A stretch of DNA of 64,000 bases. Source: Mycobacteriaceae bacterium. GTDB lineage: Bacteria > Actinomycetota > Actinomycetes > Mycobacteriales > Mycobacteriaceae. Positions 2,542 through 49,139 of the stretch are shown piece by piece. A model generated the notes under the pieces. The model was not told the DNA's origin. It saw only the letters and a list, made by a program, of their open reading frames with translations, and made no database searches. Position numbers and translations under genes: made by a program. Each line of letters opens with the position of its first letter. The first letter of the stretch is position 1. The DNA lies in contig JAIEPH010000001.1 of NCBI GenBank assembly GCA_019749805.1, positions 1-64,000 on the forward strand, written 5' to 3'.

Positions 2542-2563
2542 GAGCAGACGCGCACGCCTGCCC
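2542..2563 (-). ncRNA. Family A leader hairpin, ligase gene
   Basis: Read on the minus strand, GGGC/GCUC forms the outer 4-bp stem, GGCG/CGUC the inner stem and UGCG the loop. The outer stem differs from the usual GGCC/GGUC by a compensatory change. It ends about 20 nt before ATG 2520 and is followed by CGAAGGGA. Confidence 0.7.
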
Positions 2564-2581
2564 GTTTGGGCTAACACCGTA

Positions 2582-2603
2582 ATTGTACTGAACAGCACTG
2601 ACA
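2582..2603 (-). promoter_or_regulatory. RecA-NDp (PafBC-type) promoter, ligase gene
   Basis: Minus-strand TGTCAG (2598-2603), 10-nt spacer beginning TG, then TACAAT (2582-2587). This is an exact match to the mycobacterial RecA-NDp layout. Confidence 0.8.
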
Positions 2604-2642
2604 TTCAGTCGATGGCGGCTCCCCCGGCCGGAGCCGCCGTCG

Positions 2643-2918
2643 TCACCTCAGTTCCCACGTCACGCGAGCATCCTCGTCGCACTGCTCGACGTATTGGGCG
2701 GTGAGGTCCGCGCTGCTGATGAACCGCAGCGGGCAGGTCTCCGCCCACACCTCGGGCAGCTCCTCGATCGGGTGGATGTCGTCGGCGGTATAGCCGCAGT
2801 CCAGCATGAGGTCTCGGTCGCCTCCCCAGATGATCAGGTAGATCTTGTGGCAGCCGTCGTAGGCGAACTCGGTCGCCTCGATCACCTGGTCGTTGATCCT
2901 CAACGTCCCTTCGCTCAT
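2643..2918 (-). CDS. Hypothetical protein (91 aa), second gene of a pair
   Basis: Unrecognised 91-aa acidic protein beginning MSEGTLRIND. It contains an Ile/Trp-rich core (HKIYLIIWGGDRDL) that probably forms beta strands. Start ATG 2918 overlaps the stop of the preceding gene by ATGA, so it should be translationally coupled to it and expressed from the damage-type promoter at 3380-3401. No catalytic motif is visible. Confidence 0.7.
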   Translation of the reverse strand: MSEGTLRINDQVIEATEFAYDGCHKIYLIIWGGDRDLMLDCGYTADDIHPIEELPEVWAETCPLRFISSADLTAQYVEQCDEDARVTWELR

Positions 2919-3298
2919 TTCACGCCGCCGATCTGGCGGAGATGGTCCACGGTGATGTACGGGTTGTAGGAGCCGGGCCAGGGCGAGTCGTCGTTGAGGA
3001 ACGCTTCCGCAGGGAGCCACCCGATGGCGTAATCCAACTCTTCGTCATCCGGCCTTCGGCCGCCCCACGCCGTGCCGACGTGCAGTGCGTAGGACGGAAG
3101 GCGATTCTCGTCATCGACGTAAACCCATGCCGCTGTGTCGATTCCAAGCGATACCAGTCGTTCGATGGCGTTGGCGATCGCCTCCCGCTCCTGGTCAGTC
3201 ATGGCACTGGGAGCCGCCTTGTTTTCCAGCTGTGTCTGCGATGGTCCAGCTTCGCCGCAGCCTGCTGCGTTCTCGATGTTGTCGATTGAGTTCAGCAT
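2915..3298 (-). CDS. Hypothetical protein (127 aa) under a damage-type promoter
   Basis: Unrecognised 127-aa protein. Residues about 35-127 (TDQEREAIANAIERLVSLGI, then AWVYVDDENRLPSYALHVG) look like one compact alpha/beta domain with several acidic patches. I place the start at ATG 3298 (MLNSIDN) because the family A leader hairpin (3324-3345) and GAAGGGG Shine-Dalgarno lie just upstream; the longer frame to 3337 would translate through the hairpin. It forms a two-gene unit with the 2643-2918 gene by ATGA overlap. Confidence 0.75.
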   Translation of the reverse strand: MLNSIDNIENAAGCGEAGPSQTQLENKAAPSAMTDQEREAIANAIERLVSLGIDTAAWVYVDDENRLPSYALHVGTAWGGRRPDDEELDYAIGWLPAEAFLNDDSPWPGSYNPYITVDHLRQIGGVK

Positions 3299-3323
3299 CT
3301 TTTGCTCCCCTTCGGGGTTCAGG

Positions 3324-3345
3324 GACCGAACGCGCACATCCGGCC
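3324..3345 (-). ncRNA. Family A leader hairpin, 2915-3298 gene
   Basis: Outer stem GGCC/GGUC, inner stem GGAUG/CGUUC with G-U pairs, loop UGCG. It is followed by CCCCGAAGGGG, a second mini-hairpin that holds the Shine-Dalgarno. Confidence 0.8.
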
Positions 3346-3379: not shown

Positions 3380-3401
3380 ATTCTACAGTGGCCCACCGAC
3401 A
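3380..3401 (-). promoter_or_regulatory. RecA-NDp (PafBC-type) promoter, 2915-3298 operon
   Basis: TGTCGG (3396-3401), N10, TAGAAT (3380-3385) on the minus strand; exact match including the TG after the box. Confidence 0.8.
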
Positions 3402-3537: not shown

Positions 3538-4149
3538 TCACGACGTCGGCACTCCGTCGACCACGGAGAGATCGACGCTCACCGGGGCAGGAACCGCAGC
3601 TCCTGGTGCCACCTCGCGACGCTGAACCTCGAATACGGTGGCAATGGAGTCTGGATTGCGTTGGATGGCGAACGCTTTGCGCGCGGCCGACTCGTGGCTG
3701 TCGGCCTGGAGGTCGATGTACCAGCCGACGCGATACTCGGCCTCCTGAGCCGGGTGGTCGTCGCCGGGGTGCTGGCTGGGCTCTGACCTGGGCAGTGCCC
3801 ACGCAAAGCTCCCATGCTCTTCCCGTAGATGGTTGTCGACGACGCGGAAGCCGAACAGACTGTCGTCGCCTCCGAGGAGTCGTACGTAGGAACCTTCGAC
3901 TGCGTGGCGGCCGAGGACGGCCAACACCTGGTCGGTGACCGACGTGTAGGTGTCGCAGTGGTAGCCCAGCACGAACTCGTCGTCGCGGCTCGGCTCCGAG
4001 CAGTCCTGGAAGGACGTCAGCTCTTCGACGGCGTCGGTCAGCGTGGGGTAGTCGCTGTCGAAGGCCTCGTTCAGCGCGGCGAGCGCCGCACCGACCGAAT
4101 CGGCCGGCACCCGGAAGTCGTTGTCTACGGAGCTGGCGGAATATCCCAT
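3538..4149 (-). CDS. Hypothetical protein (203 aa) under a damage-type promoter
   Basis: Unrecognised 203-aa protein. The N-terminal ~120 residues are acidic and helical (GAALAALNEAFDSDYPTLTD). The C-terminal part (YRVGWYIDLQADSHESAARK, then FAIQRNPDSIATVFEVQ) resembles a small alpha/beta module I associate with short mycobacterial plasmid proteins, without a known function. Start ATG 4149 is set by the leader hairpin at 4211-4232; the frame upstream to 4302 runs through the promoter and hairpin. It is monocistronic, divergent from the methyltransferase gene at 4408. Confidence 0.72.
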   Translation of the reverse strand: MGYSASSVDNDFRVPADSVGAALAALNEAFDSDYPTLTDAVEELTSFQDCSEPSRDDEFVLGYHCDTYTSVTDQVLAVLGRHAVEGSYVRLLGGDDSLFGFRVVDNHLREEHGSFAWALPRSEPSQHPGDDHPAQEAEYRVGWYIDLQADSHESAARKAFAIQRNPDSIATVFEVQRREVAPGAAVPAPVSVDLSVVDGVPTS

Positions 4150-4210: not shown

Positions 4211-4232
4211 GAGTGGGCGCTCACGCCCACCC
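4211..4232 (-). ncRNA. Family A leader hairpin, 3538-4149 gene
   Basis: Outer stem GGGU/ACUC, inner stem GGGCG/CGCCC, loop UGAG. Both stems differ from the consensus with pairing kept. The distance to the ATG (about 60 nt) is longer than in other copies. Confidence 0.65.
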
Positions 4233-4280
4233 GGATTCGTGTCGATGCAACCGCCCCTCGGTGGTTACGCGACTTCTTTA

Positions 4281-4302
4281 TTATATTGGGGGCCACTGAC
4301 AT
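4281..4302 (-). promoter_or_regulatory. RecA-NDp (PafBC-type) promoter, 3538-4149 gene
   Basis: TGTCAG (4297-4302), N10 starting TGG, TATAAT (4281-4286) on the minus strand: a consensus -10 with the exact spacing. Confidence 0.82.
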
Positions 4303-10243: not shown

Positions 10244-12346
10244 ATGGCCTTGAGCGCGGGAACGGTCGTCGCCGGCTACACGATCGAAGCGGTCCTCGGC
10301 GCCGGCGGGATGGGGACCGTTTACCGTGCTGCCCACCCGAATCTGCCGCGCAGCGACGCACTGAAGATCCTGTCCGAAGAGTTCTCCCGCGACGAGGAGA
10401 TCCGCAGCCGGTTCCACCGCGAGGCCGACCTCGCCGCGACGCTGAGCCACCCCGGGATCGTCACCGTCTACAACCGCGGCGAGACAGACGACGGACGCCT
10501 CTGGATCGCCATGCAGTACGTCCCAGGCACCGACGCCGACCAACAGCTCCGCGACGGGCACATGACGCCCCTGCGGGCAGTCCGCATCATCGGCGACGTC
10601 GCCACCGCTCTGGACTACGCCCACCGGCGCCTGATACTGCACCGCGACGTCAAGCCGGCCAACTTCCTTCTCGACGCCGACGACGACCGCGTCTTCCTCG
10701 CCGACTTCGGCATCGCCCGGGCGCTCGACGACGCAGTCGGACTGACCCGAACCGGGACGGTCATGGCCAGCATTTCCTACACCGCGCCCGAAAGCTTCAA
10801 AGCCCTTCCCGTTGACCACCACGCCGACATCTACTCACTCGGTTGCGCGCTCTACCAGCTCCTCACCGGCCAGACGCCGTTCTTTCAAGCGCAGGCCGGC
10901 GGAATGGCGGCCGTCGTGTCGGCTCACCTCTTCGAGGCACCACCCAAGGTCACCGACCTGGCGCCAGCCCTGCCGGCCGCCATCGATGCGGTCGTCGCCA
11001 AGGCGATGGCCAAGGACCCCGCCGAGCGTTACCACAGCGCGCGTGAACTCGCCGCTGACGCCGCGGCGGCCATCATCGCCCCGGCAGCGGCGCCGTCACG
11101 CACTCAGCCGTGGCGTACCGCCGACACCCCGCCGACAGGAGCCGCGGCCCCCCCGGGGGCGTCAATCGACGGTCCGCGCGCTTCGTCGACCCCGACGCAA
11201 CGACCAGACCCGGTAGTGCGGCCACCGGAGCCCGAGTTGGCGCCGCCATCACCGTTCGAGTCGCCCTACCCAAATCCACCCCCCCCGCGCGCTTCCGCCA
11301 GCCCTCCCACACCCGCGCCGCCGTCGCCGTACGAATCCGCGCCAGCGCCGCCGCGCCGGTTGGTCGGCACACCGGTGGTCCCGCTGCGCCGGCCGCGCCG
11401 ACGCCGCTGGGTCATCGCCTCGGCCGTGACCCTTGTCGTCGTGCTGGTTGCCGCGGCCGGCGGCTACTTCTTGCTGCGCGACCCTGGCCGTAGCCCCTAT
11501 ACGCCGCAGACGTTTGTCCATGCGCACGGTCAAACCGAGGTCACTGCCGCGCCGACGGCCGTCGCGGCCCTGGGCCCCGGTGACGCCGACGCCGTGCTGT
11601 CCCTCGGTGTGCAACCAGTGGCGGTGACCGCTGCGGCCGCGATCCTGCCCGGCTTCGAGCGGTCCGCAGCTACCGCCAACCCGGCGGTGCTGGGTTCGAT
11701 CGACACCGCCGCCATTGCCAAGGCCAACCCCGACCTGATCATCGCCACCGGCGACATCGACGACGCCACGTTTCGCCGGCTCACCGAGATCGCCCCGACC
11801 ATCACCCGACCGGAAGACAAGACCAGCGGCACCTGGGACTGGCAGAGCCAGCTGACCTGGATCGGCCGCATCCTCGGAGAGTCCGACAAGGCCCGTGAAC
11901 TGATCGACGCCACCGTGTCTCGACAGAACGACGTCGCCAATCAGAACCCGGCGTTCAAGGGAAAGTCGATTGAAGTGTTGGCAGCCACAGACGTCGGTAT
12001 CGCCCGCGTTCTGTCGCCGTCATTCGCATCGGATTACCTTCAGTCACTGGGGTTTCGCTACAACCAGGACGCTGACCGCAATCCCGTCGACGTCGGCGCC
12101 ACCCGACCCATTCAGGACCTCAACGACCTCTACACCCTCGAACCGGACTACCTCGTCGTGATCCGTACCGACGCCGCCGCGGGCAAGGGCGGACTGAGCG
12201 GGCTGCCGCGCCAACTGTCGGTCTTCTCAGGTCGCATCATGGCTGTCGACGACCCCGACACCATCGCGGCCTTCGCAGACCCCGGCGGCTACCTGGCAGT
12301 AAAGCACCTCGACGACCACTTCGTCGCCGCCCTCGCAGCAGCTTGA
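10244..12346 (+). CDS. Receptor Ser/Thr kinase with FecB/TroA-like extracellular domain
   Basis: 700-aa PknB-family kinase fused to a substrate-binding domain. Kinase domain 1-275: Gly loop GAGGMGTVY (19-27), Lys41 in [13 protein letters not shown] (133-140), DFG (154-156), APE-like TAPESF. A Pro-rich juxtamembrane linker (about 285-385) is followed by one membrane segment (389-411, [20 protein letters not shown]). Residues 412-700 lie outside the membrane and resemble the FecB/periplasmic siderophore-binding fold ([50 protein letters not shown]). This suggests ligand sensing, perhaps a siderophore or metal chelate, driving phosphorylation of cytoplasmic partners such as the FHA-HTH protein at 14992. 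The start has GAGGAGGG about 14 nt upstream. Confidence 0.9.
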
Positions 12347-29171: not shown

Positions 29172-29194
29172 GACCGAGCCCACATGCCACGGCC
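29172..29194 (-). ncRNA. Family A leader hairpin, DUF3846-like gene
   Basis: Outer stem GGCC/GGUC kept; the inner part is 15 nt and pairs less well than in other copies. CUCCCGAAGGAG follows. Confidence 0.6.
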
Positions 29195-29721: not shown

Positions 29722-29743
29722 GACCGAGTGCGCACACCCGGCC
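29722..29743 (-). ncRNA. Family A leader hairpin, 29264-29695 gene
   Basis: Outer stem GGCC/GGUC, inner stem GGGUG/CACUC with a G-U pair, loop UGCG. Confidence 0.8.
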
Positions 29744-29776: not shown

Positions 29777-29798
29777 ATCGTACTGAGTGGGCCTGACA
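29777..29798 (-). promoter_or_regulatory. RecA-NDp (PafBC-type) promoter, 29264-29695 gene
   Basis: TGTCAG (29793-29798), N10, TACGAT (29777-29782) on the minus strand. Confidence 0.78.
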
Positions 29799-29819: not shown

Positions 29820-30209
29820 TCACGTGGTGGAGTTGAGTCGGTGCCGTGGGTCTTCGCGGCACAGCCAGCCGTCGCGGGTCAATTGCGCCGGCTCGCCGCA
29901 GCACCACGGCAGGCTCTCTCCGCCCTCGTAGATCACGGCTACGGGCGCGGGACGGTGCCAGTGCTGCCAGGGCAGCATGCCGGTGCCGAGCGTCACGTGG
30001 GCCAGGAACAGCGAGTAACCGCTCATGTCGTGAATGCGCAGCCAGTCGAGGTAGTCCTCGGCGCTGTCGACACCGTCGGGTCCGCCCTCCCCAGCGCAGC
30101 GGCGGCCGCTGTCGTCGAGCCAGGTGAAATCGGTACCGGCCGAATTCCAGTGCCGTTCGAGCGGTGCCGCGCACACCGTGCACGTCGTCGCGTCGATGGT
30201 CTTAGCCAC
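29820..30209 (-). CDS. Cysteine-rich hypothetical protein (129 aa)
   Basis: 129-aa protein beginning VAKTIDATTCTVCAAPL. It has CxxC near the N-terminus and later single or paired Cys (RRCAGEGG, PWCCGEPAQ, WLCRED), suggesting two zinc-knuckle-like sites. GTG 30209 overlaps the stop of the upstream 98-aa gene by 8 nt, so it is translationally coupled and shares the promoter at 30580-30601. The frame upstream to 30602 is antisense-like and was not used. Confidence 0.65.
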   Translation of the reverse strand: MAKTIDATTCTVCAAPLERHWNSAGTDFTWLDDSGRRCAGEGGPDGVDSAEDYLDWLRIHDMSGYSLFLAHVTLGTGMLPWQHWHRPAPVAVIYEGGESLPWCCGEPAQLTRDGWLCREDPRHRLNSTT

Positions 30210-30498
30210 GGCAGCCGGCCCCCGGTAGCGCGCAATCGCGGCGGGCGTCGGCGATCGCCGGTCGTACCGGCGCGGTAGTGCATTGGCCGCCGCTGATCTG
30301 GGCGTGAATCTGTCTCGGGGTGACCAGCTCTGGGCGACCGGTGGACAGATACAGCACAGCCAGGTCGTAGGCCTCGCAGCGCACCCGGCACGCGCCGCCG
30401 GTATGAGTCTTGCGGTACCGCAGCGACAACTCACGGCGGCGCAGCTCCTCGGGCGTCTCGCCGGGGCACGGGGAAAGTGACGGTGACTGACTGAGCAT
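30202..30498 (-). CDS. Hypothetical protein (98 aa) under a damage-type promoter
   Basis: 98-aa protein with an Arg-rich N-terminal half (ETPEELRRRELSLRYRKTHT) and several Cys (GGACRVRCEAYDLA, GGQCTTA, DCALPGAGC). AVLYLSTGRPELVTPRQIHA is the best-formed helical part. It is unrecognised. ATG 30498 follows the family A hairpin and AAAAGGGGGAG. It heads a two-gene unit with 29820-30209. Confidence 0.68.
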   Translation of the reverse strand: MLSQSPSLSPCPGETPEELRRRELSLRYRKTHTGGACRVRCEAYDLAVLYLSTGRPELVTPRQIHAQISGGQCTTAPVRPAIADARRDCALPGAGCRG

Positions 30499-30522: not shown

Positions 30523-30544
30523 GACCGGACGCGCACGCCGGGCC
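30523..30544 (-). ncRNA. Family A leader hairpin, 30202-30498 gene
   Basis: Outer stem GGCC/GGUC, inner GGCG/CGUC, loop UGCG; followed by CCCGAAAAGGGG holding the Shine-Dalgarno. Confidence 0.8.
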
Positions 30545-30579: not shown

Positions 30580-30601
30580 AGTGTAGGCGGACTCTCCGAC
30601 A
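30580..30601 (-). promoter_or_regulatory. RecA-NDp (PafBC-type) promoter, 30202-30498 operon
   Basis: TGTCGG (30596-30601), N10, TACACT (30580-30585) on the minus strand. Confidence 0.8.
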
Positions 30602-30623: not shown

Positions 30624-31163
30624 TCAGCGAGGGGGATTGATCGGGGCCCACGGGGACATGAACCAATCCCACTGCGGCCGGATTCGTCTCCCCGAGGCCG
30701 CTTTCCACAGTCGCAGGTTGTCGACCTGAACGGTGTCGATGCGGGTTCCGCTGCGCAGGGTCACGGGAGATTGCAAGGTGATCCACTGTCCGCGGGCCGC
30801 CAGCGCGGCCACGCGGCGCTGCTGGTACTGCGCGGCTTCCTCGCGCCATTGGCGGGCATACTCACCGTGCGGTTCAGTGAGCGCCGCCAGGACCGTCGCG
30901 CCGACACCCAGTGCCGTTGGTCCCATGGATTCGTCCATCATCTTGATGACCACGTCGCCGCGAGACTGGGCGAACAACGTGATGGACGCCCACACCTGCC
31001 CGTCGGCCTCCCGGTGGGCGGCGAAGTACGTTCCGCCCCAGTCGCATCCGTCTCCGGGTGCAGCGTTTGAGGCGACGGCCTCGGCGCGGCCGCCACGGAC
31101 GTGACGGGCGACCTCGGCGCGTGCGGTGCTCCCGTACGGAATGGCGTAGCTGATTGATCCCAT
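30624..31163 (-). CDS. Hypothetical protein (179 aa) under a damage-type promoter
   Basis: 179-aa protein, MGSISYAIPYGSTARAEVAR onward. The middle (GCDWGGTYFAAHREADGQVW, ASITLFAQSRGDVVIKMMDE) and the C-terminal segment (LQSPVTLRSGTRIDTVQVDN) read as two beta-rich units around a helix (YARQWREEAAQYQQRRVAAL). The pattern is familiar from actinophage and plasmid hypothetical proteins, without a function I can name. ATG 31163 follows the leader hairpin (31185-31206) and CAGGGAG. Confidence 0.75.
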   Translation of the reverse strand: MGSISYAIPYGSTARAEVARHVRGGRAEAVASNAAPGDGCDWGGTYFAAHREADGQVWASITLFAQSRGDVVIKMMDESMGPTALGVGATVLAALTEPHGEYARQWREEAAQYQQRRVAALAARGQWITLQSPVTLRSGTRIDTVQVDNLRLWKAASGRRIRPQWDWFMSPWAPINPPR

Positions 31164-31184: not shown

Positions 31185-31206
31185 GACCAGGTGCGCGCAC
31201 ATGGCC
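31185..31206 (-). ncRNA. Family A leader hairpin, 30624-31163 gene
   Basis: Outer stem GGCC/GGUC, A-U pair then one mismatch, inner stem GUGC/GCAC. Confidence 0.78.
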
Positions 31207-31241: not shown

Positions 31242-31263
31242 ACTATAAGCGCCGGGTCCGACA
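31242..31263 (-). promoter_or_regulatory. RecA-NDp (PafBC-type) promoter, 30624-31163 gene
   Basis: TGTCGG (31258-31263), N10, TATAGT (31242-31247) on the minus strand. Confidence 0.8.
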
Positions 31264-31283: not shown

Positions 31284-31856
31284 TCAGTCCCGCGTCCAGC
31301 TCTCGGCGGTGGTGTCGGTCCCGATGAATTGATGCTGGCACTGATAGCAGCGGGCAGTCCCGGCCGCGCGGTTGATCCAGTACCCGAAGTGCTGATGCTC
31401 GTTGACGACTGGGGCCGGGTTGACGGCGACCGCGCGCAGGACGTCGTTGGCGACGGCGCAGATTTCGTCGAGGTGTTCGCGGGCGCTGCGGCGGGCATCG
31501 GCGCCGTCGTCGACCAGGGGGACTTCGGTCCAGCCACTGGTGAGCCCGATGAGGCGCTGGCCGCCGGCGGCGTTCTTGAGGACGGCGTAGAAGCCACTGC
31601 TCTCGTCGTCGTCGTCACCGTAGACATCGAGTTCGAACGCGTTGTCTCCGAGAATGACTGACGCCTCTTGGGCGCTGTGGAACAGATCCGACAGCGCGGC
31701 GCCGGCGCAAGGGTTTGACCGCGTGGGGACGTCGCACTCCAGCTCGTCGCCCTTGGCGTCGCACCAGCGGGTGAAGGCGGCCTCGTCGAGGCTGAACAGC
31801 GTGATCTGCGTGGCGGCAAGGGCCACGGTGAAGGCGGGTGAGGTTGCAGCTGTCAT
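31284..31856 (-). CDS. Hypothetical protein (190 aa) under a damage-type promoter
   Basis: 190-aa acidic protein. The N-terminal part resembles LAATQITLFSLDEAAFTRWC; the middle is DVYGDDDDESSGFYAVLKNA; the C-terminus carries GTARCYQCQHQF, a CxxC motif of zinc-ribbon type. The family is unknown. ATG 31856 follows the leader hairpin (31880-31901) and GGAGAG. It is monocistronic. Confidence 0.74.
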   Translation of the reverse strand: MTAATSPAFTVALAATQITLFSLDEAAFTRWCDAKGDELECDVPTRSNPCAGAALSDLFHSAQEASVILGDNAFELDVYGDDDDESSGFYAVLKNAAGGQRLIGLTSGWTEVPLVDDGADARRSAREHLDEICAVANDVLRAVAVNPAPVVNEHQHFGYWINRAAGTARCYQCQHQFIGTDTTAESWTRD

Positions 31857-31879: not shown

Positions 31880-31901
31880 GACCGGGCACTCATGTCCGGC
31901 C
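31880..31901 (-). ncRNA. Family A leader hairpin, 31284-31856 gene
   Basis: Outer stem GGCC/GGUC, inner GGACA/UGCCC with one mismatch, loop UGAG. Confidence 0.78.
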
Positions 31902-31937: not shown

Positions 31938-31959
31938 ATTTTAGCGGCGCCTACCGACA
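31938..31959 (-). promoter_or_regulatory. RecA-NDp (PafBC-type) promoter, 31284-31856 gene
   Basis: TGTCGG (31954-31959), N10, TAAAAT (31938-31943) on the minus strand. Confidence 0.82.
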
Positions 31960-33595: not shown

Positions 33596-33798
33596 CGGAC
33601 CACCATCGTCAAGCCAGCAAGGTTCGGCGCGGGGGGCGTCGTGCTATGCCCGCGTTTGACTGTGTTCTGAATGAGCCAAACTAGCGCGGCCGTCCGCGAC
33701 ATGGCCGTCAGGTCGGGAATCTCGACGTTGTAGCTGCGGCAGGAGTACACCTTGCCGTCGTATTCGACCCTAGGCTTCGGTCCGCGTTTCCGGGTCAT
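33592..33798 (-). CDS. Small hypothetical protein (68 aa), second gene of operon
   Basis: 68-aa basic protein, MTRKRGPKPRVEYDGKVYSC onward. ATG 33798 overlaps the stop of the 159-aa gene by ATGA, and its own stop overlaps the next gene by GTGA. The KRGPKPRVEYDGK start resembles small DNA-associated proteins. The function is unknown. Confidence 0.68.
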   Translation of the reverse strand: MTRKRGPKPRVEYDGKVYSCRSYNVEIPDLTAMSRTAALVWLIQNTVKRGHSTTPPAPNLAGLTMVVR

Positions 33799-34274
33799 CG
33801 AACCAAGTCCTCTTCGCAGGAGGGGCACCGTTCGGTACCGGTCGTAGCGCCGTCGTGACGTTCGCCGCAATCGGGGCACTCGTAGGCCAAACCGTCGATG
33901 CCATCTGCGAACTCGTCGTCGTCCGCCGGGGTGTCGTTTTGCCAGAGTGCTCGACTGCGAACGGTGGTGCGGCGGCGGCCGCGGCAGGTAATGCACGCGC
34001 AGGGAATCCCCCGCCGGGTGCTGAAGAGGCGACCGTGACACTCGGGGCAAAGGACCGACAGCTCAACGGTTCCCGGCGCGTGGGGTGATGCGTGAGTCCA
34101 GGTGTTCCACGCCTGCTCCCATGAGGTGAACGTTTGTCGTTGACGTAGCGTCCACCTTGCGAATTCCGTGCGGATCTCATACCCGGAGTTCATGGGCCGC
34201 AAGTCGGGTAGCGCGGCGGCGAGCACGTGGTGCGGTAGCTGATGGATCTCGCGGGCGCGGGCGTGATTGTTCAT
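33795..34274 (-). CDS. Double zinc-ribbon protein (159 aa) under a damage-type promoter
   Basis: 159-aa protein. The N-terminal 70 residues are helical (TSWEQAWNTWTHASPHAPG). Then come CPECHG...CACITC (about residues 80-101) and YECPDCG...CPSCEE (about 133-155), two zinc ribbons. It probably binds nucleic acid or protein. It is first gene of a three-gene overlapping operon; ATG 34274 follows the leader hairpin (34302-34323) and AAAGGTCCTCC. Confidence 0.78.
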   Translation of the reverse strand: MNNHARAREIHQLPHHVLAAALPDLRPMNSGYEIRTEFARWTLRQRQTFTSWEQAWNTWTHASPHAPGTVELSVLCPECHGRLFSTRRGIPCACITCRGRRRTTVRSRALWQNDTPADDDEFADGIDGLAYECPDCGERHDGATTGTERCPSCEEDLVR

Positions 34275-34301: not shown

Positions 34302-34323
34302 GACCGGGCACACGTGCCGGGCC
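34302..34323 (-). ncRNA. Family A leader hairpin, 33332-34274 operon
   Basis: Outer stem GGCC/GGUC, C-C mismatch, inner GGCAC/GUGCC. Confidence 0.8.
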
Positions 34324-34351: not shown

Positions 34352-34373
34352 AGTGTACTGCGGGGGTCTGACG
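34352..34373 (-). promoter_or_regulatory. RecA-NDp-like promoter, 33332-34274 operon
   Basis: CGTCAG (34368-34373), N10, TACACT (34352-34357) on the minus strand: one mismatch (first T) to the consensus. Confidence 0.65.
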
Positions 34374-36291: not shown

Positions 36292-37347
36292 TCAGGTGGG
36301 TTGCGCAGTGAGTCCGGGGTGGTCGTAGAGGTCGGCCAGGTACTGTTTCGTCGCCTCACTCCATGGCCGGTTGCTTGCGGTGCCCAGGACTGCGGCGGCA
36401 ACGGGTGGGACGACGACGTCGGCGAGCTGGTGGAAGCGGGCGGTGCGACTGCCGTGCCACGGGTAGTCGCGCGGGAAGCCCTGCAGGTACCCGGCTTCGG
36501 CTTCGGTGAGGCGCTCGCCGGTCGTTTCGCGAGCCCATGTCCTGGCCTTCTCGGTCATGCACCAGCCGATCTTGCTGGCTGCGAACAGGTTTCCTCCGGT
36601 GGGTCGCCGGTTGCCGCGGGTGCGGATCATCTCGTCTGAGGGCCAGTCGAGGACTTGGGCCATGGTTCGTTCGGGCCATCGGACGAGTGGTGCGTAGTGG
36701 TCGTGGCGTCCGGTCGGCTCTGCGCGGTTGGCGACGAGGAAGACTCGTTTGCGGCGCATGGGCATTCCCAGGTTGGCGGCGTCGATGGTGAAGACGTCGA
36801 CCCCTGAGAAGTGCTCGAACAGTTCGGCGGCGAGGTCGTCGAACATGAATTCTGTTGCGCTGGTGGCGACTTGCTCGAAGGCCAGCCATTGCAGGTTGGG
36901 CAGTCCCAGTGCGAAGCGAATGGTCTGGGCCGCGAGGGCTGTGCGCGGGTCGCTGGCAGCGGCGAGTTCTTCGGCGATGGTGTCCCACGGGCACTCGCAG
37001 TCGACGCTGCCGGCGTGGGTGATGACGTCGAGGATGATCTGCAGGTCGTGCGCGCCGCTGCGCAGCCCGGCCGAGGAGAAGGTGGGGCATGGGCTTGAGC
37101 AGATGAATCCGGTGATCTCGGGGTGCTGCGCCGGGTCGACGTCGAGAATGTCGCCGACGTGGCGGCGGTGTCCCGCCGCTGCCGCGGCGGCGGCCGCCGA
37201 CTGGTTGATCTCGACGCCGAGGAACGTCGACGGGCTCATGCCGATGATGGTGGCGCCGACATCCCAGCCGCCCGGGCCTGCGAAGGCGTCCAGGATGGTC
37301 GGCGCCGGCAGTGGCGTTCCGGGCGGCTGGTGTGTCGTGGTGATCAT
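36292..37347 (-). CDS. C5-cytosine DNA methyltransferase under a damage-type promoter
   Basis: 351-aa protein with C5-MTase motifs in order: I LDAFAGPGGW (19-28), IV SSPCPTFSSAG with catalytic C87, VI FEQV (157-160, usually ENV), VIII MRRKRVFLVA (197-206), IX-X GFPRDYPW and QLADVVVPPVAAAVLG. The target-recognition part is short. An orphan enzyme is likely: no restriction partner is adjacent. ATG 37347 follows the leader hairpin (37369-37391) and AGGAGGG. Placing a DNA methyltransferase under a damage promoter is unusual. Confidence 0.85.
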   Translation of the reverse strand: MITTTHQPPGTPLPAPTILDAFAGPGGWDVGATIIGMSPSTFLGVEINQSAAAAAAAAGHRRHVGDILDVDPAQHPEITGFICSSPCPTFSSAGLRSGAHDLQIILDVITHAGSVDCECPWDTIAEELAAASDPRTALAAQTIRFALGLPNLQWLAFEQVATSATEFMFDDLAAELFEHFSGVDVFTIDAANLGMPMRRKRVFLVANRAEPTGRHDHYAPLVRWPERTMAQVLDWPSDEMIRTRGNRRPTGGNLFAASKIGWCMTEKARTWARETTGERLTEAEAGYLQGFPRDYPWHGSRTARFHQLADVVVPPVAAAVLGTASNRPWSEATKQYLADLYDHPGLTAQPT

Positions 37348-37368: not shown

Positions 37369-37391
37369 GACCGGGCTCGCAAGCCCTGGCC
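37369..37391 (-). ncRNA. Family A leader hairpin, C5-MTase gene
   Basis: Outer stem GGCC/GGUC, bulged A, inner GGGCU/AGCCC, loop UGCG; 23 nt. Confidence 0.8.
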
Positions 37392-37429: not shown

Positions 37430-37451
37430 AGCGTATCCGACAGGTCCGACG
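37430..37451 (-). promoter_or_regulatory. RecA-NDp-like promoter, C5-MTase gene
   Basis: CGTCGG (37446-37451), N10, TACGCT (37430-37435) on the minus strand: one mismatch to the consensus. Confidence 0.65.
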
Positions 37452-40379: not shown

Positions 40380-40661
40380 TCAAGGACGATGGCGTACCCG
40401 ACGCGTCGTGGGGTCAGCGGGAACGATGACCTCGGTGCGTGGGTCGTGGTCGACCTCGCTCACGGAGTTGATTTGGCGCTCCACTCCCTGGAAGCCGTCG
40501 TCGTTGAGTTCGGCCAACCTGTTCTCCAGGTCCAGCTCGTCGATGTCCGCGCCGAGCGGCACCTGCACCCGAACCCGGTGCTCGGAGACTTCCGTCCACG
40601 TGACGAGGACCGTTTGCATCGTCGCTGGCTGACTCGGGGCGTGGCGGTCTGTTGAGGTCAT
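40380..40661 (-). CDS. Small DpnD/PcfM-like protein (93 aa) under a damage-type promoter
   Basis: 93-aa protein with TVLVTWTEVSEHRVRVQVPL, then GADIDELDLENRLAELNDDG: a beta hairpin plus helix typical of short DpnD/PcfM-like accessory proteins of mobile elements. No activity is known to me. ATG 40661 follows the leader hairpin (40683-40704) and CGAAGGGA. Confidence 0.68.
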   Translation of the reverse strand: MTSTDRHAPSQPATMQTVLVTWTEVSEHRVRVQVPLGADIDELDLENRLAELNDDGFQGVERQINSVSEVDHDPRTEVIVPADPTTRRVRHRP

Positions 40662-40682: not shown

Positions 40683-40704
40683 GACTGGGCCAGCAGGCCG
40701 AGCC
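40683..40704 (-). ncRNA. Family A leader hairpin, 40380-40661 gene
   Basis: Outer stem GGCU/AGUC (compensatory change), C-C mismatch, inner GGCC/GGCC, loop UGCU. Confidence 0.75.
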
Positions 40705-40739: not shown

Positions 40740-40761
40740 ATTGTATTGCGCTGCACCGACA
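40740..40761 (-). promoter_or_regulatory. RecA-NDp (PafBC-type) promoter, 40380-40661 gene
   Basis: TGTCGG (40756-40761), N10 starting TG, TACAAT (40740-40745) on the minus strand. Confidence 0.82.
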
Positions 40762-40790: not shown

Positions 40791-41285
40791 TCACGGGCGC
40801 TGAGGCTGTCCTCCAATGCTGCCGGCGCGGCGGAGCAGCGAAGCGGCCACACCACGCTGGTAGCCGATGCCGGGCGCGGCTTCGAAGGCGTCCATCAGTT
40901 CGATGTCCGCAGCACCAGCCTCGTTGACGAGATGAATGCCGGCCGCGAGCACCCTGAGGTACGCCGCGGGCAGCAAGGCGATGATCTGGTTGGGACGACG
41001 TGCTCCCAGCTGGGCGGCCACCCGCTCGGGGCTGCACGATCCGGGCTGGCCCATCTTGAGGTCGTAGGGGGCAAGGACGGTGTCGAGGTCCACCAGTCCG
41101 TGCAATGCCGAGAGAATTGCGACCCCGGCGGGCTGCCCGCAGACCCGGGTGGTCTCAGCTGCTTCGCTGCGTGCAGCGGACAGCATGAACGCGAAGTGGT
41201 TGCTGCAGTAGAGCTTCGCGGCCGGTGCGGGGTGCCGCCGCTTGGCGGCGGCGCAGGCGACGACCAGGAGGACGCCGCCGCTCAC
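40791..41285 (-). CDS. DUF6884-like protein (164 aa)
   Basis: 164-aa protein starting at GTG 41285, overlapping the upstream stop by GTGA. LLVVACAAAKRRHPAPAAKL (Cys, Lys), YCSNHFAFMLSAARS, AGVAILSALHGLVDLDTVLA and PYDLKMG match the DUF6884 pattern, where a conserved ACG-KK, LSA-HG-L and PY suggest a nucleobase-related enzyme. Family members occur in phages and plasmids. The frame upstream to 41603 is antisense to the preceding gene and was not used. Confidence 0.78.
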   Translation of the reverse strand: MSGGVLLVVACAAAKRRHPAPAAKLYCSNHFAFMLSAARSEAAETTRVCGQPAGVAILSALHGLVDLDTVLAPYDLKMGQPGSCSPERVAAQLGARRPNQIIALLPAAYLRVLAAGIHLVNEAGAADIELMDAFEAAPGIGYQRGVAASLLRRAGSIGGQPQRP

Positions 41286-41587
41286 CGGAAGTCCTTGGAG
41301 TCGATGATGAATTGCGTCACTTCGCGGCACCGTGTCGGGCAGGCGATGACGGCGAGGTCGTTGCAACGCAGTCGTACCTTTCTGCCGGAGCCGTCGAGGA
41401 CGATGCGGACGTAACCCCCGGGCACGCCCACGACCATGCCGGTGCGTTCCCCGGCGGTGTGCCAAGCGGTGCCGGGCCGCAGCGCTACCCGGTCTGCGAG
41501 TTGGAAGTCCGCCAGCGACGTCGAGTAGGCGACGTCGTCGCCGTCGAGGTCTTGAACGGTGGTGTAGAAACGGTCGTCGAGTGGCAT
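41282..41587 (-). CDS. Hypothetical protein (101 aa) with family A leader
   Basis: 101-aa protein. DRFYTTVQDLDGDDVAYSTS, then GERTGMVVGVPGGYVRIVLD and GRKVRLRCNDLAVIACP read like a small SH3/Tudor-type beta barrel. It precedes the DUF6884 gene with GTGA overlap. ATG 41587 follows TGAGGGAG and the family A hairpin (41615-41636). No RecA-NDp box was found; the region upstream holds an 8-bp stem-loop (41646-41670). Confidence 0.7.
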   Translation of the reverse strand: MPLDDRFYTTVQDLDGDDVAYSTSLADFQLADRVALRPGTAWHTAGERTGMVVGVPGGYVRIVLDGSGRKVRLRCNDLAVIACPTRCREVTQFIIDSKDFR

Positions 41588-41614: not shown

Positions 41615-41636
41615 GACCGGGTCGTCGGGCCTGGCC
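41615..41636 (-). ncRNA. Family A leader hairpin, 41282-41587 gene
   Basis: Outer stem GGCC/GGUC, A-C mismatch, short inner stem GG/CC. Confidence 0.7.
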
Positions 41637-42047: not shown

Positions 42048-42416
42048 CTAGTCGTGTGTGGCCGGCGGCGGAGCGTCGGGCGTTAGGTGCGTGCCGAAGG
42101 GCGGGGACGTGCCATCGGTGCTGGTCGTCGGCGCGGTGCCGTGTTCGTGGGCGAGAGACTGTCGGGCGCGGCCTCGCATGCGGTGCACGTAGCGCTGGAT
42201 GTCGTCAATGCGATCGGCGATCTCGTCGATGTCGCCTTCGATGATCAGGCCGTCCTCTTCGCCGAGGAACAGCGCCCACGGCGCATCCACCCTCTTCGCC
42301 CACATGTCGTCGTCATCTGGGCCGGCGGTGTTCAGCTCGTCAGGTGCGTGGTCGCGGTCGACCAGTAGGTAATTCAAGCCCTGGACCCGCGCCCAGTTGT
42401 ACTTGCTGCCGCTCAT
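42048..42416 (-). CDS. Hypothetical protein (122 aa), second gene of a unit
   Basis: 122-aa acidic protein. NWARVQGLNYLLVDRDHAPD, DAPWALFLGEEDGLIIEGDI and DEIADRIDDIQRYVHRMRGR form a compact alpha/beta domain; the C-terminal 30 residues are Thr/Pro-rich and are encoded over an element C copy (42101-42126). ATG 42416 overlaps the stop of 42413-42691 by ATGA. It is unrecognised. Confidence 0.7.
   Translation of the reverse strand: MSGSKYNWARVQGLNYLLVDRDHAPDELNTAGPDDDDMWAKRVDAPWALFLGEEDGLIIEGDIDEIADRIDDIQRYVHRMRGRARQSLAHEHGTAPTTSTDGTSPPFGTHLTPDAPPPATHD
42101..42126 (-). repeat. Element C copy inside the 3' end of a gene
   Basis: Minus strand GACCAG-CAC-CGATGGCACGTCCCCGC. It lies in the Thr/Pro-rich C-terminal coding part of the 42048-42416 gene. 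Confidence 0.6.
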
Positions 42417-42691
42417 CGGTCGCTCCCCTCCCCGTTGTTCTCGTCGTCCGCGCCGTCCTGCCACCCCTGCTCTTCCTCGTCGGCGGCGGCTTGGCGGTCC
42501 GCGCAGTTCCCGCAGGCTCCGTCCCATCCCTCGCCGTCGTCGAGGGAGGCCATGCAGCCCTCGTCGAACGGGTCCGAACAGATGTCGTCGCGATCGGTGT
42601 CGGAGAGCGCCTGCCGGGCGTCTAGCTGCTCGTTGGCTTCGACCGTGTGGGCCATATCGTCGAAAACATGGGAACTGTCAACGTATTTCAT
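42413..42691 (-). CDS. Acidic cysteine-containing protein (92 aa) under a damage-type promoter
   Basis: 92-aa, very acidic protein: MKYVDSSHVFDDMAHTVEAN, DDICSDPFDEGCMASLDDGE, GACGNCADRQAAADEEEQG. Four Cys (C..C..CxxC) may form one zinc site. The acidity would suit a DNA-mimic or a protein partner; no family is recognised. ATG 42691 is fixed by the leader hairpin and GAAGGGGTGG. It heads a unit of at least three genes (to 41706). Confidence 0.72.
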   Translation of the reverse strand: MKYVDSSHVFDDMAHTVEANEQLDARQALSDTDRDDICSDPFDEGCMASLDDGEGWDGACGNCADRQAAADEEEQGWQDGADDENNGEGSDR

Positions 42692-42719: not shown

Positions 42720-42741
42720 GACCGGGCCCGCGGGCCTGGCC
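42720..42741 (-). ncRNA. Family A leader hairpin, 42413-42691 unit (best copy)
   Basis: Outer stem GGCC/GGUC, A-C mismatch, inner GGCCC/GGGCC. Followed by ACCAAUCCCCGAAGGGG, where CCCC-GAA-GGGG sequesters the Shine-Dalgarno. Confidence 0.85.
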
Positions 42742-42777: not shown

Positions 42778-42799
42778 AGTTTATCGCGGGGGTCCGACA
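42778..42799 (-). promoter_or_regulatory. RecA-NDp (PafBC-type) promoter, 42413-42691 unit
   Basis: TGTCGG (42794-42799), N10, TAAACT (42778-42783) on the minus strand. Confidence 0.8.
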
Positions 42800-44112: not shown

Positions 44113-44134
44113 ACGCTACCGCCGCCTACCGACA
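44113..44134 (-). promoter_or_regulatory. RecA-NDp (PafBC-type) promoter, zinc-finger-like gene
   Basis: TGTCGG (44129-44134), N10, TAGCGT (44113-44118) on the minus strand. Confidence 0.75.
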
Positions 44135-44914: not shown

Positions 44915-45307
44915 TCACAGCGGCGCTCCGGCCGTGAGCTGCATGCCGAGCAGGATCCCCACCAGCAGCGCCAGCACCATCAATGCGCTGGCGAGTGCGG
45001 TGGCCGGCAGTGGCCAGTTGCGGGGGTTGTGCGGTGACGGCACGACATCTGTCCAGAAGTCCAGTGCAGCGCGCAGAGCGTCGGGATGGGTAGGGGTGTT
45101 CTGCATGGCCGTGTGCACCCAGTGCCAGCGCACCCCGTAGGCCAACATGAGCGCGGCGACCTGGGCGCGAATGACGTCGGCCTCGCCGAACCGCCGGGCG
45201 TCTGCGAGGCTGCCCGCCGTGGGGACGGCGGGTTGGATGAGTTCGGCGATGATGGGCCCGGGCAGGCCGACCCGGGCGGCGACCTCGTCTTCGGTGAACT
45301 GCTGCAT
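44915..45307 (-). CDS. MerR-like N-terminus plus C-terminal membrane segment (130 aa)
   Basis: 130-aa protein. Residues 1-55 (MQQFTEDEVAARVGLPGPII, ADARRFGEADVIRAQVAALM) resemble the MerR/excisionase helix-turn-helix. Residues ~105-125 are one membrane segment (ALASALMVLALLVGILLGMQ). A membrane-tethered HTH would be unusual; it may instead be a topology anchor. ATG 45307 is set by the leader hairpin (45334-45355) and GACGGGAAG. No clear RecA-NDp box is seen (ATCAG and TACTGT are badly spaced). Confidence 0.7.
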   Translation of the reverse strand: MQQFTEDEVAARVGLPGPIIAELIQPAVPTAGSLADARRFGEADVIRAQVAALMLAYGVRWHWVHTAMQNTPTHPDALRAALDFWTDVVPSPHNPRNWPLPATALASALMVLALLVGILLGMQLTAGAPL

Positions 45308-45333: not shown

Positions 45334-45355
45334 GACCGGATACGCGTACCCGGCC
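45334..45355 (-). ncRNA. Family A leader hairpin, 44915-45307 gene
   Basis: Outer stem GGCC/GGUC, inner GGGUAC/GUAUCC fully paired with one G-U pair: the strongest inner-stem change that still pairs. Confidence 0.8.
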
Positions 45356-45435: not shown

Positions 45436-45651
45436 TCACGTGATCGTGTCCGCAGGTTTGACCGTTTCCAGCTGAGCGCAGAGCCTGTCGAGGACGTCCA
45501 GGCCCAATCCGGCCCATCTCGCGGATCCGCCGTCGCCGAAGTCCACCCAGACAGTGCCCGCCGCCTCGGGCGAAACCGCAGACGTGTCCTGACTGGCGGA
45601 CTGATCGTGATCGCATAGCTGCGGCGCGCTGGTGTATGGCGTTGTGCTCAT
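45436..45651 (-). CDS. Small hypothetical protein (71 aa) under a damage-type promoter
   Basis: 71-aa protein: APQLCDHDQSASQDTSAVSP, then AAGTVWVDFGDGGSARWAGL and GLDVLDRLCAQLETVKPADT. A beta hairpin and one helix are predicted by eye. It is unrecognised. ATG 45651 follows the leader hairpin (45675-45696) and CGAAAGGGA. Confidence 0.7.
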   Translation of the reverse strand: MSTTPYTSAPQLCDHDQSASQDTSAVSPEAAGTVWVDFGDGGSARWAGLGLDVLDRLCAQLETVKPADTIT

Positions 45652-45674: not shown

Positions 45675-45696
45675 GGCTGGGCTCGCAGGCCTAGCC
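45675..45696 (-). ncRNA. Family A leader hairpin, 45436-45651 gene
   Basis: Outer stem GGCU/AGCC, a perfect compensatory change from GGCC/GGUC; A-C mismatch; inner GGC/GCC. Followed by CCCGAAAGGG. Confidence 0.8.
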
Positions 45697-45723: not shown

Positions 45724-45745
45724 AGTCTATCGGGAAGCACTGACA
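45724..45745 (-). promoter_or_regulatory. RecA-NDp (PafBC-type) promoter, 45436-45651 gene
   Basis: TGTCAG (45740-45745), N10 starting TG, TAGACT (45724-45729) on the minus strand. Confidence 0.8.
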
Positions 45746-46604: not shown

Positions 46605-48454
46605 GCGCCGCCCCCGCCCTGTCCATCGTCCTCAGCGCTGGTCCACTTGACGCGATACTTGCCGTTGACGGCGGGCTGCTCGTCGAAGATCGACAGGTCC
46701 TGGTCTCGATCCACCAGGTAGATCCAGGCGTCCAACTCGGCCTGCACCGGGTACAGATTGTGGGTGTCGGCCATCATCCGCGCATAGCGCATGGCCCGCC
46801 AGCGAGTGTCTGCGCGGATCGCCGCGTACCACGCCGGCTGCTGGTGTTGCTTCTGGCTGGGCTGCCATTGGTCACTGGCCATCCGACCGAGGTAGGTGGT
46901 GTAGATCGCCTTGACGAAGTCCTGGTAGTCCTCTCGTTCGGCCTCGCGCGCCTCAATGAGCTTGGCGCGCAGAGCGTCTGCCCAGGTCCGCAGGAGCCGG
47001 CTTTGTTGCGGCCACACCCATGCTTCGTCGATGACCAGCTCGGGGATGCTCAGGCCAGCGCCGCCCAGCTCCACGGGAGCGGTGAGCTGCTGGACACCAC
47101 GGGTGGTGACCCAGAAGGTGGCGGGTTCGTCCCACTGCATCGAGGCATGCGGGCGGGGCAGCTTCTTGGTCAGTCCGTCAAGGTCGCTGCACGGCGGGGT
47201 GGTCAGGCGCCACAGACCGAAGGGCGGCTTTTGTTCCCCGAAGACACCGACGTCAATCGTGCTGAGTTCCTTGGGCTTTCCGTAGCCGAGTTCTACCTGC
47301 CCCGCTGAAGCCAGGTATGCCGCACGTTGGTCGACCTCGACGTCGATCTTGTCCTCTTTAGCGCGGTGGGGACGTCGATCCCACTGCGGTTCGACGGCGG
47401 GCTCGATGTCGCCGCCGGTTTCGACGGCCACCTGGGCGGGATAGGGGCATGCTTCGATCGCCTTGGTGTCTTGGCGGCCCCGTCGCCGGACCGCATCCAG
47501 AAGCGATGCGCCCAGGGTTGACCACCGCGATGACGGCGCAACGCCGTCGGCGATATTGGCAAGCCAGGCAATGCGTTCGGCGAGCAACTTGACCGCGTCA
47601 ACTTCGTCTTCGGGCAGCTCGGTCCCGGAGTCCTCGTAGCCGGCCACCCCCATGTCTCCGGGGCGTTTGGACGAGGGGTCTGTGTGCATGAGCGGGATCA
47701 GCACCACATACGCCTTGCGGTCCCCGGCGAACTTGCAGGTGAACCATCCCGCTTTGGCGTTGCTCACTTTGCAGTCGAAATATTGCTCAACGACGCCGGT
47801 GATCGCTGATGATGACGTGATCGGACCGTCTGAGTCATCGACGGCGAACCCGATGGATTCGAGCGCTTCGTAGGTGAGCCAAAGTTGCGGTAGGAATTTG
47901 GGGCTTCGCGGCCAATGTGTGGCCAGGAATCTGCCGAGGGCCTGGCCGCTGGGCATGGATTGACCGGTGATGACCTTGCCCGAGGGGACGACGACGCCAA
48001 GGCTACTGATGATCGCGACGCGGTCATCGGCGGCCATCGGCACATCTGCCCACAGCCGCGACCGCGGCGTCCATGCGGGCTTGCCTGAGTCAGAGCGTGT
48101 TTCGACTGCGACCGCTTCGTCCGTCATGTCCCGCGATACCGCGTTCGTGAGGGTTTCCGCGCCGGGCGCGTCGCTGCTGAGCAGTGCAGCTTCCCAAGCA
48201 TCGACGGTGGTTTCCAGCCAGCCGCGAGTGTGGCCTGTTTCTCTGTTGGGATCGCCGATCACCATGTCGGGGGCCGGGAAGTCTGTCGGCAGGGCGCTGC
48301 GGCCGATGCGCGCCAGGACCTGTTGCCGCGACAAGGCAATCAGCGGTTCCGGTGCGCCCTGGGACTCGATGTACCACTGGAGGATGTCGCTGGTTTCGTC
48401 GTCGGCGTCGATGCGGTAGGTCCGTCCAGCAGTGGTCAGAAGGTAACGCGTCAT
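46601..48454 (-). CDS. Telomere-associated (Tap-like) protein candidate (617 aa)
   Basis: 617-aa protein. Residues ~330-615 follow the order I recall for Tap of Streptomyces linear plasmids: AYLASAGQVELGYGKPKEL, FGLWRLTTPP, FWVTTRGVQQLTAPVEL, VIDEAWVWPQQSRLLRTWAD, ALRAKLIEA, VKAIYTTYLGRMASDQW, WYAAIRADTRWRAMRYARMM and NLYPVQAELDAWIYLVD. The N-terminal part is unrecognised. Start ATG 48454 has GAGGAGA 7-8 nt upstream. The gene sits between a small HTH gene and the Tpg-like candidate, with an ATGA overlap to the latter. If right, the replicon is linear, or derived from one. Confidence 0.6.
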   Translation of the reverse strand: MTRYLLTTAGRTYRIDADDETSDILQWYIESQGAPEPLIALSRQQVLARIGRSALPTDFPAPDMVIGDPNRETGHTRGWLETTVDAWEAALLSSDAPGAETLTNAVSRDMTDEAVAVETRSDSGKPAWTPRSRLWADVPMAADDRVAIISSLGVVVPSGKVITGQSMPSGQALGRFLATHWPRSPKFLPQLWLTYEALESIGFAVDDSDGPITSSSAITGVVEQYFDCKVSNAKAGWFTCKFAGDRKAYVVLIPLMHTDPSSKRPGDMGVAGYEDSGTELPEDEVDAVKLLAERIAWLANIADGVAPSSRWSTLGASLLDAVRRRGRQDTKAIEACPYPAQVAVETGGDIEPAVEPQWDRRPHRAKEDKIDVEVDQRAAYLASAGQVELGYGKPKELSTIDVGVFGEQKPPFGLWRLTTPPCSDLDGLTKKLPRPHASMQWDEPATFWVTTRGVQQLTAPVELGGAGLSIPELVIDEAWVWPQQSRLLRTWADALRAKLIEAREAEREDYQDFVKAIYTTYLGRMASDQWQPSQKQHQQPAWYAAIRADTRWRAMRYARMMADTHNLYPVQAELDAWIYLVDRDQDLSIFDEQPAVNGKYRVKWTSAEDDGQGGGGA

Positions 48455-48468
48455 TGATGTCTCCTCTT

Positions 48469-48777
48469 TCACTGCTGCTCTTGACGAGGTGGGGGAATGT
48501 GGATCGACAGAACCTCTGGCAGTCGGCGCTGTCGCCACCGCAGCCGCAGCGATTCCACCGCGCTGGCGGTGCGGCCAACCCTGAGTGCGGCATCGGGCAC
48601 CGACAGCGTGAAGTCGAGGGCAATCTTCGCTTCGTCGACCGTCCATGGCCTGCGCGATCTTTGTTGATCAGCTGGTGCGGCCGTCCGGGCGGCGCGCCGC
48701 TCGACGTAGCGGCGGCGCTCTTCGCGGCGGCCTTCGGCGAACCCGCCGAAGTTGCCTTCCCGTGGTGCCGGCGTCAT
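48469..48777 (-). CDS. Small HTH-like protein (102 aa) upstream of the Tap-like gene
   Basis: 102-aa basic protein. The N-terminus is Arg-rich (EGRREERRRYVERRAARTAA); residues ~45-85 (PWTVDEAKIALDFTLSVPDA, ALRVGRTASAVESLRLRWRQ) look like a helix-turn-helix of the SANT/HTH_23 kind. It precedes the 617-aa gene by 14 bp, so it is the first gene of a three-gene operon. ATG 48777 has AAGGAC upstream; the leader has a hairpin (48813-48832, TCGCC/GGCGA) and TAGGGT at 48877-48882 as the likely -10. Confidence 0.7.
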   Translation of the reverse strand: MTPAPREGNFGGFAEGRREERRRYVERRAARTAAPADQQRSRRPWTVDEAKIALDFTLSVPDAALRVGRTASAVESLRLRWRQRRLPEVLSIHIPPPRQEQQ

Positions 48778-49057
48778 TGCTCACGTCCTTGACTGGTGCC
48801 TACCTTCGAGCGTCGCCCCACGTGTGTGGCGATGCAGTCTTGGTTCACAGATCCCTCCTCGGCCCAGCGATGCCCTACCCTAGCACCCCTCAGGTATTGC
48901 TGTCGGCATGCATGAGTGGCGTGTTGCTCCTCGTGTGCCATTGCGTTGCTCCACGTACCGGGCATCGGAGGATCCTTCATTCACTGCGGCGCAGCCCCTT
49001 TGACTCGGCCCGTTACGCACTAGACTCGGCCGCACAGCGGGACTGGTGCGCGGAACT

Positions 49058-49079
49058 TGTCGGACACCCCCGCTACAGT
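49058..49079 (+). promoter_or_regulatory. RecA-NDp (PafBC-type) promoter, methylase-helicase gene
   Basis: TGTCGG (49058-49063), N10, TACAGT (49074-49079) on the plus strand: the only plus-strand copy, preceding the largest gene. Confidence 0.8.
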
Positions 49080-49117
49080 GCACATCGCACGCCGGACGCG
49101 TTCCGGCGACGAGAAAC

Positions 49118-49139
49118 GGCTGGCCCTGAGGGGCTGGTC
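49118..49139 (+). ncRNA. Family A leader hairpin, methylase-helicase gene
   Basis: Outer stem GGCU/GGUC, inner GGCCC/GGGCU, loop UGAG; followed by ACCGAACCGAAAGG and ATG 49162. Confidence 0.8.

Follow-up and report, generated by a model that had tools for sequence, protein, structure and literature searches.

In mycobacteria, PafBC is an activator that is switched on by single-stranded DNA (PMC11804915), and the published motif of its promoters is TGTCGG or TGTCAG, a spacer of 10 nucleotides (nt), and TANNNT (PMC8151990). The start-associated sequences (SAS and ESAS) of cluster K mycobacteriophages and the similar repeats of Microbacterium phages lie upstream of start codons in many copies, most of which share one orientation (PMC3203893, PMC7302621). 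Here, we describe a hairpin that likewise occurs in many copies before start codons, in a 64,000-nt window that comprises positions 1 to 64000 of contig JAIEPH010000001.1 (C116; 163,207 bases) in the 6.48-Mb draft genome of a Mycobacteriaceae bacterium (GCA_019749805.1). This contig is likely a mycobacterial plasmid. In the window, 17 copies of the hairpin, each 22 or 23 nt long, precede 17 genes.

We found that most hairpin leaders begin with TGTCRG-N10-TANNNT, matching the published PafBC motif, and that orthologous genes carry stems that differ in sequence yet are compensated. We consider it fairly probable that the 17 hairpins are one covarying leader element of a plasmid gene set, mostly behind a PafBC-type promoter, and that they form an RNA binding site controlling the translation of each cistron. 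Judged from sequence, the function of the hairpin is likely posttranscriptional. A preliminary description of the window had reported the 17 copies, all of which are present, and had suggested a shared posttranscriptional control and possibly a new RNA family. The shared control remains likely, given the covariation, the orthologs, and the position of the hairpin. The same three lines of evidence speak for a new family, as does the fact that Rfam has no match at the copies. What that description overlooked was the PafBC-type promoter, the family of plasmids, and a second class of hairpin on sister plasmids. The link to PafBC is the main new point beyond it.

Covariation and fixed bases

The stem bases of the window copies change together, as had been claimed. 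In the alignment of the 17 copies, 91.5% of the cells were paired, compared with 78.8% in shuffles, and none of 500 shuffles was as high. When the pairing partner was slid along the sequence, no more than 55.1% of the cells were paired. Changes on both sides were found at 6 of the 9 pairs, a number that was reached in 12 of 500 shuffles. In the family alignment of 84 distinct rows, which was fitted to the covariance model and includes some opposite-strand rows, 91.3% of the cells were paired versus 77.9% when shuffled, and 104 cells were double changed versus 27.5 in the shuffles. Comparing the stems of orthologous genes is a cleaner test of covariation than the family alignment. There, 49 comparisons were compensated, spread over 13 family-pair combinations, while six slid controls gave 8, 0, 3, 0, 0, and 0. 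One ortholog family, for example, has the stems GGCT-A-GGCC/AGCC-C-AGCC and GGCC-A-GACA/TGTC-A-GGTC.

A search of plasmids with a covariance model had been proposed, and the model that we built from the 17 window copies (R1) yielded 137 copies on ten plasmid contigs after cleanup, with 79 distinct hairpins. This number derives from 43 loci scanned with R1, which gave 171 matches at E 0.6. The 21 weakest matches, among them the window copy at 29172, were left unscored, and 150 were aligned; 2 of these lay off the ten contigs, and 11 (by subtraction) were opposite-strand duplicates.

Certain bases of the element are fixed or nearly so. A C precedes the hairpin in 89 of 89 nonredundant leaders; this base is unpaired and lies outside the model. 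Of the 79 unique hairpins, all have G at loop position 2 (as do all 17 window copies), 70 have the loop UGCG, CGCG, UGAG, or CGAG (YGMG), 74 have G.U at pair 2, and 39 have a mismatch at pair 5, counts that the search partly imposed because the model was built from window copies. Both 23-nt window copies have an extra base at position 5. We take YGMG loops to belong to the YNMG (UNCG-like) tetraloop class. The predicted RNA was more stable in the sense than in the antisense direction in 57 of the 79 hairpins and equally stable in 1. This, together with an excess of G.U over A.C cells (28 versus 14 outside pairs 2 and 5), favors the RNA strand, although not overwhelmingly.

Position between promoter box and start codon

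The hairpin had been placed about 20 to 60 nt before start codons. The placement was right, and the range is narrower: the hairpin ends 20 to 29 nt from the start codon in 16 of the 17 window copies. For the copy at 4211 to 4232, the chosen start lies at 61 nt, and an ATG at 30 nt opens a different frame. On the ten contigs, with start codons chosen by a script from open reading frames of at least 40 amino acids (aa), 134 of 136 scorable copies end 17 to 30 nt upstream of the start; one copy (G096) was unscorable because the stitched sequence ends there. Window copy 4211 is one of the two exceptions, and the other lies at 46 nt and has an ortholog-matching, in-frame ATG at 25 nt. The orientation of the hairpin is fixed relative to the gene. 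With the two leaders at 40 nt or more omitted, the distance from hairpin to start codon was 23.7 nt (standard deviation, 3.0; n = 87), and that from the −10 box to the hairpin was 33.0 nt (standard deviation, 6.4; n = 62).

A box with at most one mismatch was found within 150 nt of 112 of the 136 copies. In the other 24 the best box has at least two mismatches, and 12 of these copies lie 28 to 84 nt behind another hairpin gene, probably inside apparent operons. Window examples are the copies at 45334 and, by position, 29172. The tighter spacing to the start codon and the copies within operons indicate that the element goes with the ribosome-binding site. The Shine-Dalgarno sequence had been said to lie often in a second mini-hairpin. 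This arrangement is common but not universal. With CCC/GGG or ACC/GGT pairing, it was found in 31 of 89 nonredundant leaders of the ten contigs; with two more pairings allowed, it was found in 46 of 87 leaders, compared with a mean of 24.1 and a maximum of 35 in 500 shuffles of only the bases 5′ of the Shine-Dalgarno sequence. The hairpin marks likely start codons. On plasmid p1-JPH1 of Mycobacterium avium (locus L009), 7 of 11 copies match the annotated start, and the four at 1678, 19227, 23847, and 31302 point to nonannotated starts; two annotated genes would cross the hairpin.

We found 198 matches to TGTC[GA][GC]-N8-12-TANNNT on the ten contigs. A hairpin of the type found by R1 (class 1) lies no more than 75 nt downstream of 120 of them, and the spacer is exactly 10 in 117 of these 120. 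Three permuted boxes preceded a hairpin in 0 of 25, 0 of 12, and 0 of 19 cases (0 of 56 in total). TGTCGG as a −35 element with a spacer of 14 to 19 was rejected: 10 such matches had a hairpin and 39 did not, permuted controls gave 0 of 16, 1 of 31, and 1 of 17, and the true spacer is 10. The window's genome has 74 exact box matches, compared with 27 for a reversed control. Thirteen of the 74 fall in the window, which is 1% of the genome, and all but one of these 13 are followed by a hairpin. Outside the window's contig there are 60 box matches; the 30 retrieved as loci were examined, and none has a hairpin, but many may not be promoters. All 7 genomes examined have an adjacent pair of WYL-domain genes, presumably encoding PafB and PafC, on a contig other than the hairpin contig.

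Sixteen of the window hairpins are on the minus strand and one is on the plus strand. The box is exact in 12 of the 17 leaders, has one mismatch in 2, and is absent from 3. On the minus strand, the copy at 2542 to 2563 (box TGTCAG-N10-TACAAT, 2582 to 2603) lies upstream of a WGR/ligase gene (1450 to 2520). The copies at 3324 to 3345 (box, 3380 to 3401) and 4211 to 4232 (box, 4280 to 4301) precede the genes at 2915 to 3298 and 3538 to 4149, and that at 23627 to 23648 (box, 23681 to 23702) precedes a DUF4192 gene (22626 to 23606). The hairpin at 29172 to 29194, which pairs imperfectly and is the weakest window copy, has no box; it lies upstream of a DUF3846 gene (28633 to 29142) and after the hairpin gene at 29264 to 29695, whose own copy is at 29722 to 29743 (box, 29777 to 29798). 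The copies at 30523 to 30544 (box, 30580 to 30601), 31185 to 31206 (box, 31242 to 31263), and 31880 to 31901 (box, 31938 to 31959) lie upstream of a gene at 30202 to 30498, a DUF6927 gene at 30624 to 31163, and a gene at 31284 to 31856, respectively. Two copies have boxes with one mismatch: that at 34302 to 34323 (loop CGTG; box, 34352 to 34373), upstream of 33795 to 34274, and that at 37369 to 37391 (box, 37430 to 37451), upstream of a DNA cytosine methylase gene (36292 to 37347). The copy at 40683 to 40704 (loop TGCT; box, 40740 to 40761) precedes 40380 to 40661, that at 41615 to 41636 (loop CGAC; no box) precedes 41282 to 41587, and that at 42720 to 42741 (box, 42778 to 42799) precedes 42413 to 42691. 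The copy at 45334 to 45355, without a box of its own, lies upstream of an apparent internal cistron (44915 to 45307), and that at 45675 to 45696 (box, 45724 to 45745) lies upstream of 45436 to 45651. On the plus strand, the copy at 49118 to 49139 (box, 49058 to 49079) precedes a methyltransferase-helicase gene (49162 to 53844). A further sequence match to the box, at 44113 to 44134 on the minus strand, has no class-1 hairpin behind it.

The products of the window hairpin genes that are not named above are of unknown kind, and many of the short hairpin-gene products inspected are acidic. Elsewhere in the window, positions 10244 to 12346 encode a serine/threonine kinase with a periplasmic-binding-protein-like domain, and a direct repeat of 262 nt (82% identical) lies at 63347 to 63608 and 63689 to 63950.

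Plasmid distribution and a second hairpin class

Among 297 genomes of the host's genus, 46 had an R1 match at E ≤0.05. Nine genomes, the window's included, had at least 5 copies, on one contig each plus one match elsewhere in the window's genome; the remaining 37 had one or two matches each. The nine likely include plasmids or contigs of M. alvei, M. frederiksbergense, M. palauense, M. novocastrense, M. rhodesiae JS60, Mycolicibacterium sp. GF69, and Mycobacterium sp. MBM. R1 also finds further copies on p1-JPH1. In 251 genomes of the host's family at E 0.01, 12 had a match, and only the window's genome had more than one. Among distant relatives, there was one weak R1 match each in L210 and L211 and none in L212, and no boxed leaders passed the filter. 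Eight viral contigs with a HerA-like relative had no R1 match at E 0.05, and a scan of viral contigs gave no relative of the WGR/ligase protein. We found no near phage DNA; one HerA-like protein was found in a phage record. Rfam 15 at the gathering score, a check that had been suggested, gave no match in the window and none at a hairpin of L009, L067, L097, or L098. The single match in these loci was a Transposase-2 RNA on p1-JPH1 (L009:39356-39424), overlapping the 3′ end of a TnpB gene.

Many core families of the ten plasmid contigs match ESX/type VII secretion system (T7SS) and transfer-like genes. ESX genes are present on p1-JPH1, with homologues on the related contigs, and the window's contig has an FtsK/TrwB-like ATPase. 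The ESX genes and the ATPase make conjugation plausible, and the hairpin genes may have a role in plasmid establishment.

The methyltransferase-helicase gene is also present on plasmids of M. vanbaalenii JOB5, Mycolicibacterium sp. TY66, M. intracellulare subsp. chimaera, and Mycolicibacterium sp. CBMA 213. Around this gene, none of the four sister plasmids had an R1 match at E 0.6. Their leaders have the same boxes but a different hairpin. We found that 24 of 31 sister-plasmid boxes lead to a hairpin (four pairs, a 1×1 site, and at least three of four pairs), compared with a mean of 1.4 and a maximum of 6 in 200 shuffles, and that these hairpins always start 10 to 13 nt after the −10 element. 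In a set of 22 such leaders, for which the 4+1+4 architecture was a search condition and the 31-box shuffle test is the control, 20 have a purine-purine mismatch at position 5, the loop has 4 to 6 nt, and the start codon is 15 to 28 nt away. In the shuffle test, all 339 TANNNT sites, true ones included, gave 68 hairpins. One second-class row, CHIM 14231, appears to be a chance match. A further loop type is present on the plasmid of M. alvei. On contig C2 of genome G020, the boxes at 46951, 66661, 69854, 71350, and 73874 (minus strand) have leaders with another hairpin type, with the loop TAGCA. Neither hairpin class was present in the stretches examined of two Rhodococcus plasmids, and a Tsukamurella plasmid (L224:19909-19980) has a PafBC-type box upstream of a WGR/ligase homologue, with the hairpin absent. 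The presence of different hairpins behind one promoter type argues for lineage-specific partners. The sister plasmids are ready controls, with another hairpin behind the same promoter.

Mechanism, alternatives, and known systems

We propose the following mechanism. Single-stranded DNA would cause the hairpin genes to be transcribed by RNA polymerase with host PafBC, and the hairpin would fold in the mRNA leader. A cognate RNA-binding factor, perhaps plasmid encoded, would bind the hairpin with its YNMG-type loop and fixed G. The hairpin adjoins the Shine-Dalgarno sequence, often itself in a mini-hairpin, and binding would hold or release translation jointly. With this element, the timing of gene expression on large mycobacterial plasmids becomes testable, and these plasmids are likely linked to a DNA-damage activator of the host. 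A more speculative extension, which we regard as possible but doubtful, is that mycobacterial plasmids use PafBC to sense arrival: single-stranded DNA, whether incoming or damaged, would turn on a plasmid establishment block, and the hairpins, which would differ between plasmid lineages, would be private addresses read by cognate plasmid factors that gate the translation of each cistron. There would then be a multigene RNA-hairpin regulon tied to PafBC.

Several observations weigh against translational control through a bound hairpin. Further pair types in the family alignment were not above shuffles (90 of 500 were as high), and in 115 ortholog comparisons just one of the two sequences was paired; 74 of these lay away from the mismatch site. 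Conservation within the hairpin owes something to the search itself, and in the window only 13 of 17 loops are YGMG. The sense strand is predicted to be less stable than the antisense strand in 21 of the 79 hairpins, and the strand signal from the G.U cells is modest. Boxes with a spacer of 14 to 18 still gave a hairpin in 7 of 44 cases. Seventy-eight of the 198 loose boxes have no class-1 hairpin downstream; by eye, variant hairpins lie behind some of them and none behind others. Finally, there is no candidate for a universal RNA-binding factor: the core gene content of the ten contigs includes no obvious RNA-binding protein, and the single strongly basic hairpin-gene family that we saw, with a 61-aa Arg/Lys-rich product, was rejected as a universal binder, as at E 0.001 it is present in 6 of 297 genomes, the window's genome not being among them. 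Its gene (L198 to L202), present in some plasmids only, mostly has a hairpin with an unusual A-U pair 4.

The main alternative is that the hairpin passively stabilizes the mRNA or insulates translation and that no dedicated factor binds it. Loops of the UNCG-like type are very stable, and the sister-plasmid hairpin, of another sequence and similar architecture, starts close enough to the −10 element to lie near the mRNA 5′ end. However, stability needs no fixed C before the hairpin, no G at loop position 2, and no G.U at pair 2, and 12 copies lie inside apparent operons, away from the 5′ end. We consider passive stabilization unlikely, although it is the strongest of the alternatives.

It is improbable that the hairpin acts in single-stranded DNA at conjugative entry, as an Frpo-like promoter or initiation site. 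Frpo-type promoters mark the leading regions of other plasmids (PMC11541004), and 16 of the 17 window copies share one direction. However, most copies have PafBC-type boxes upstream, the spacing tracks the start codon more than the promoter, copies lie between cistrons, and the hairpin contigs of 7 genomes yielded no TrwC-type relaxase. Recruitment of an antitermination factor is very improbable. The hairpin to which LoaP, a NusG paralogue, binds in 5′ leaders is of the UNCG type (PMC12691694), but a LoaP-type factor was rejected here: in 9 of 9 genomes the sole NusG match is off the hairpin contig, and hairpins are found before short genes and before apparent internal cistrons. Equally hard to credit is a palindrome in double-stranded DNA that serves a transcription regulator as operator, since, although the hairpins are near-palindromic and some score on both strands, the inner stem varies yet mostly stays paired, the orientation is fixed relative to the gene, and the hairpin is downstream of the box wherever a box exists.

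An RNA site for translational control, the reading that we prefer, can be compared with several known systems. The PafBC (RecA-NDp) regulon of mycobacteria shares the promoter motif TGTCRG-N10-TANNNT, its exact spacer length included; it consists of chromosomal repair genes, whereas the genes described here are on plasmids and most boxed leaders add a hairpin. The SAS/ESAS and Microbacterium repeats differ in being Shine-Dalgarno motifs, or inverted repeats that, according to the authors, do not generally support RNA pairing, and in having other sequences (PMC3203893, PMC7302621). The preliminary description had likewise set the SAS apart by sequence, and the 13-bp SAS/ESAS element at the ribosome-binding site, GGGATAGGAGCCC, had 0 matches in the window at up to 2 mismatches. 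In the LoaP/dfn system, a UNCG-type 5′-leader hairpin is protein bound, but it serves antitermination of two long operons, whereas we found no NusG on the hairpin contigs (PMC12691694). Frpo single-strand promoters are likewise hairpin elements before plasmid genes (PMC11541004), whereas the hairpin here is short, is predicted to be part of the transcript, and follows a PafBC-type box. The titles and abstracts of the best-matching open-license papers on PafBC/RecA-NDp and plasmids, conjugative plasmids, and hairpins do not describe the element. Translational operators such as the MS2 coat and CsrA sites are hairpins adjoining a ribosome-binding site, as here; those operators have other sequences, whereas here many genes carry the element with covarying stems.

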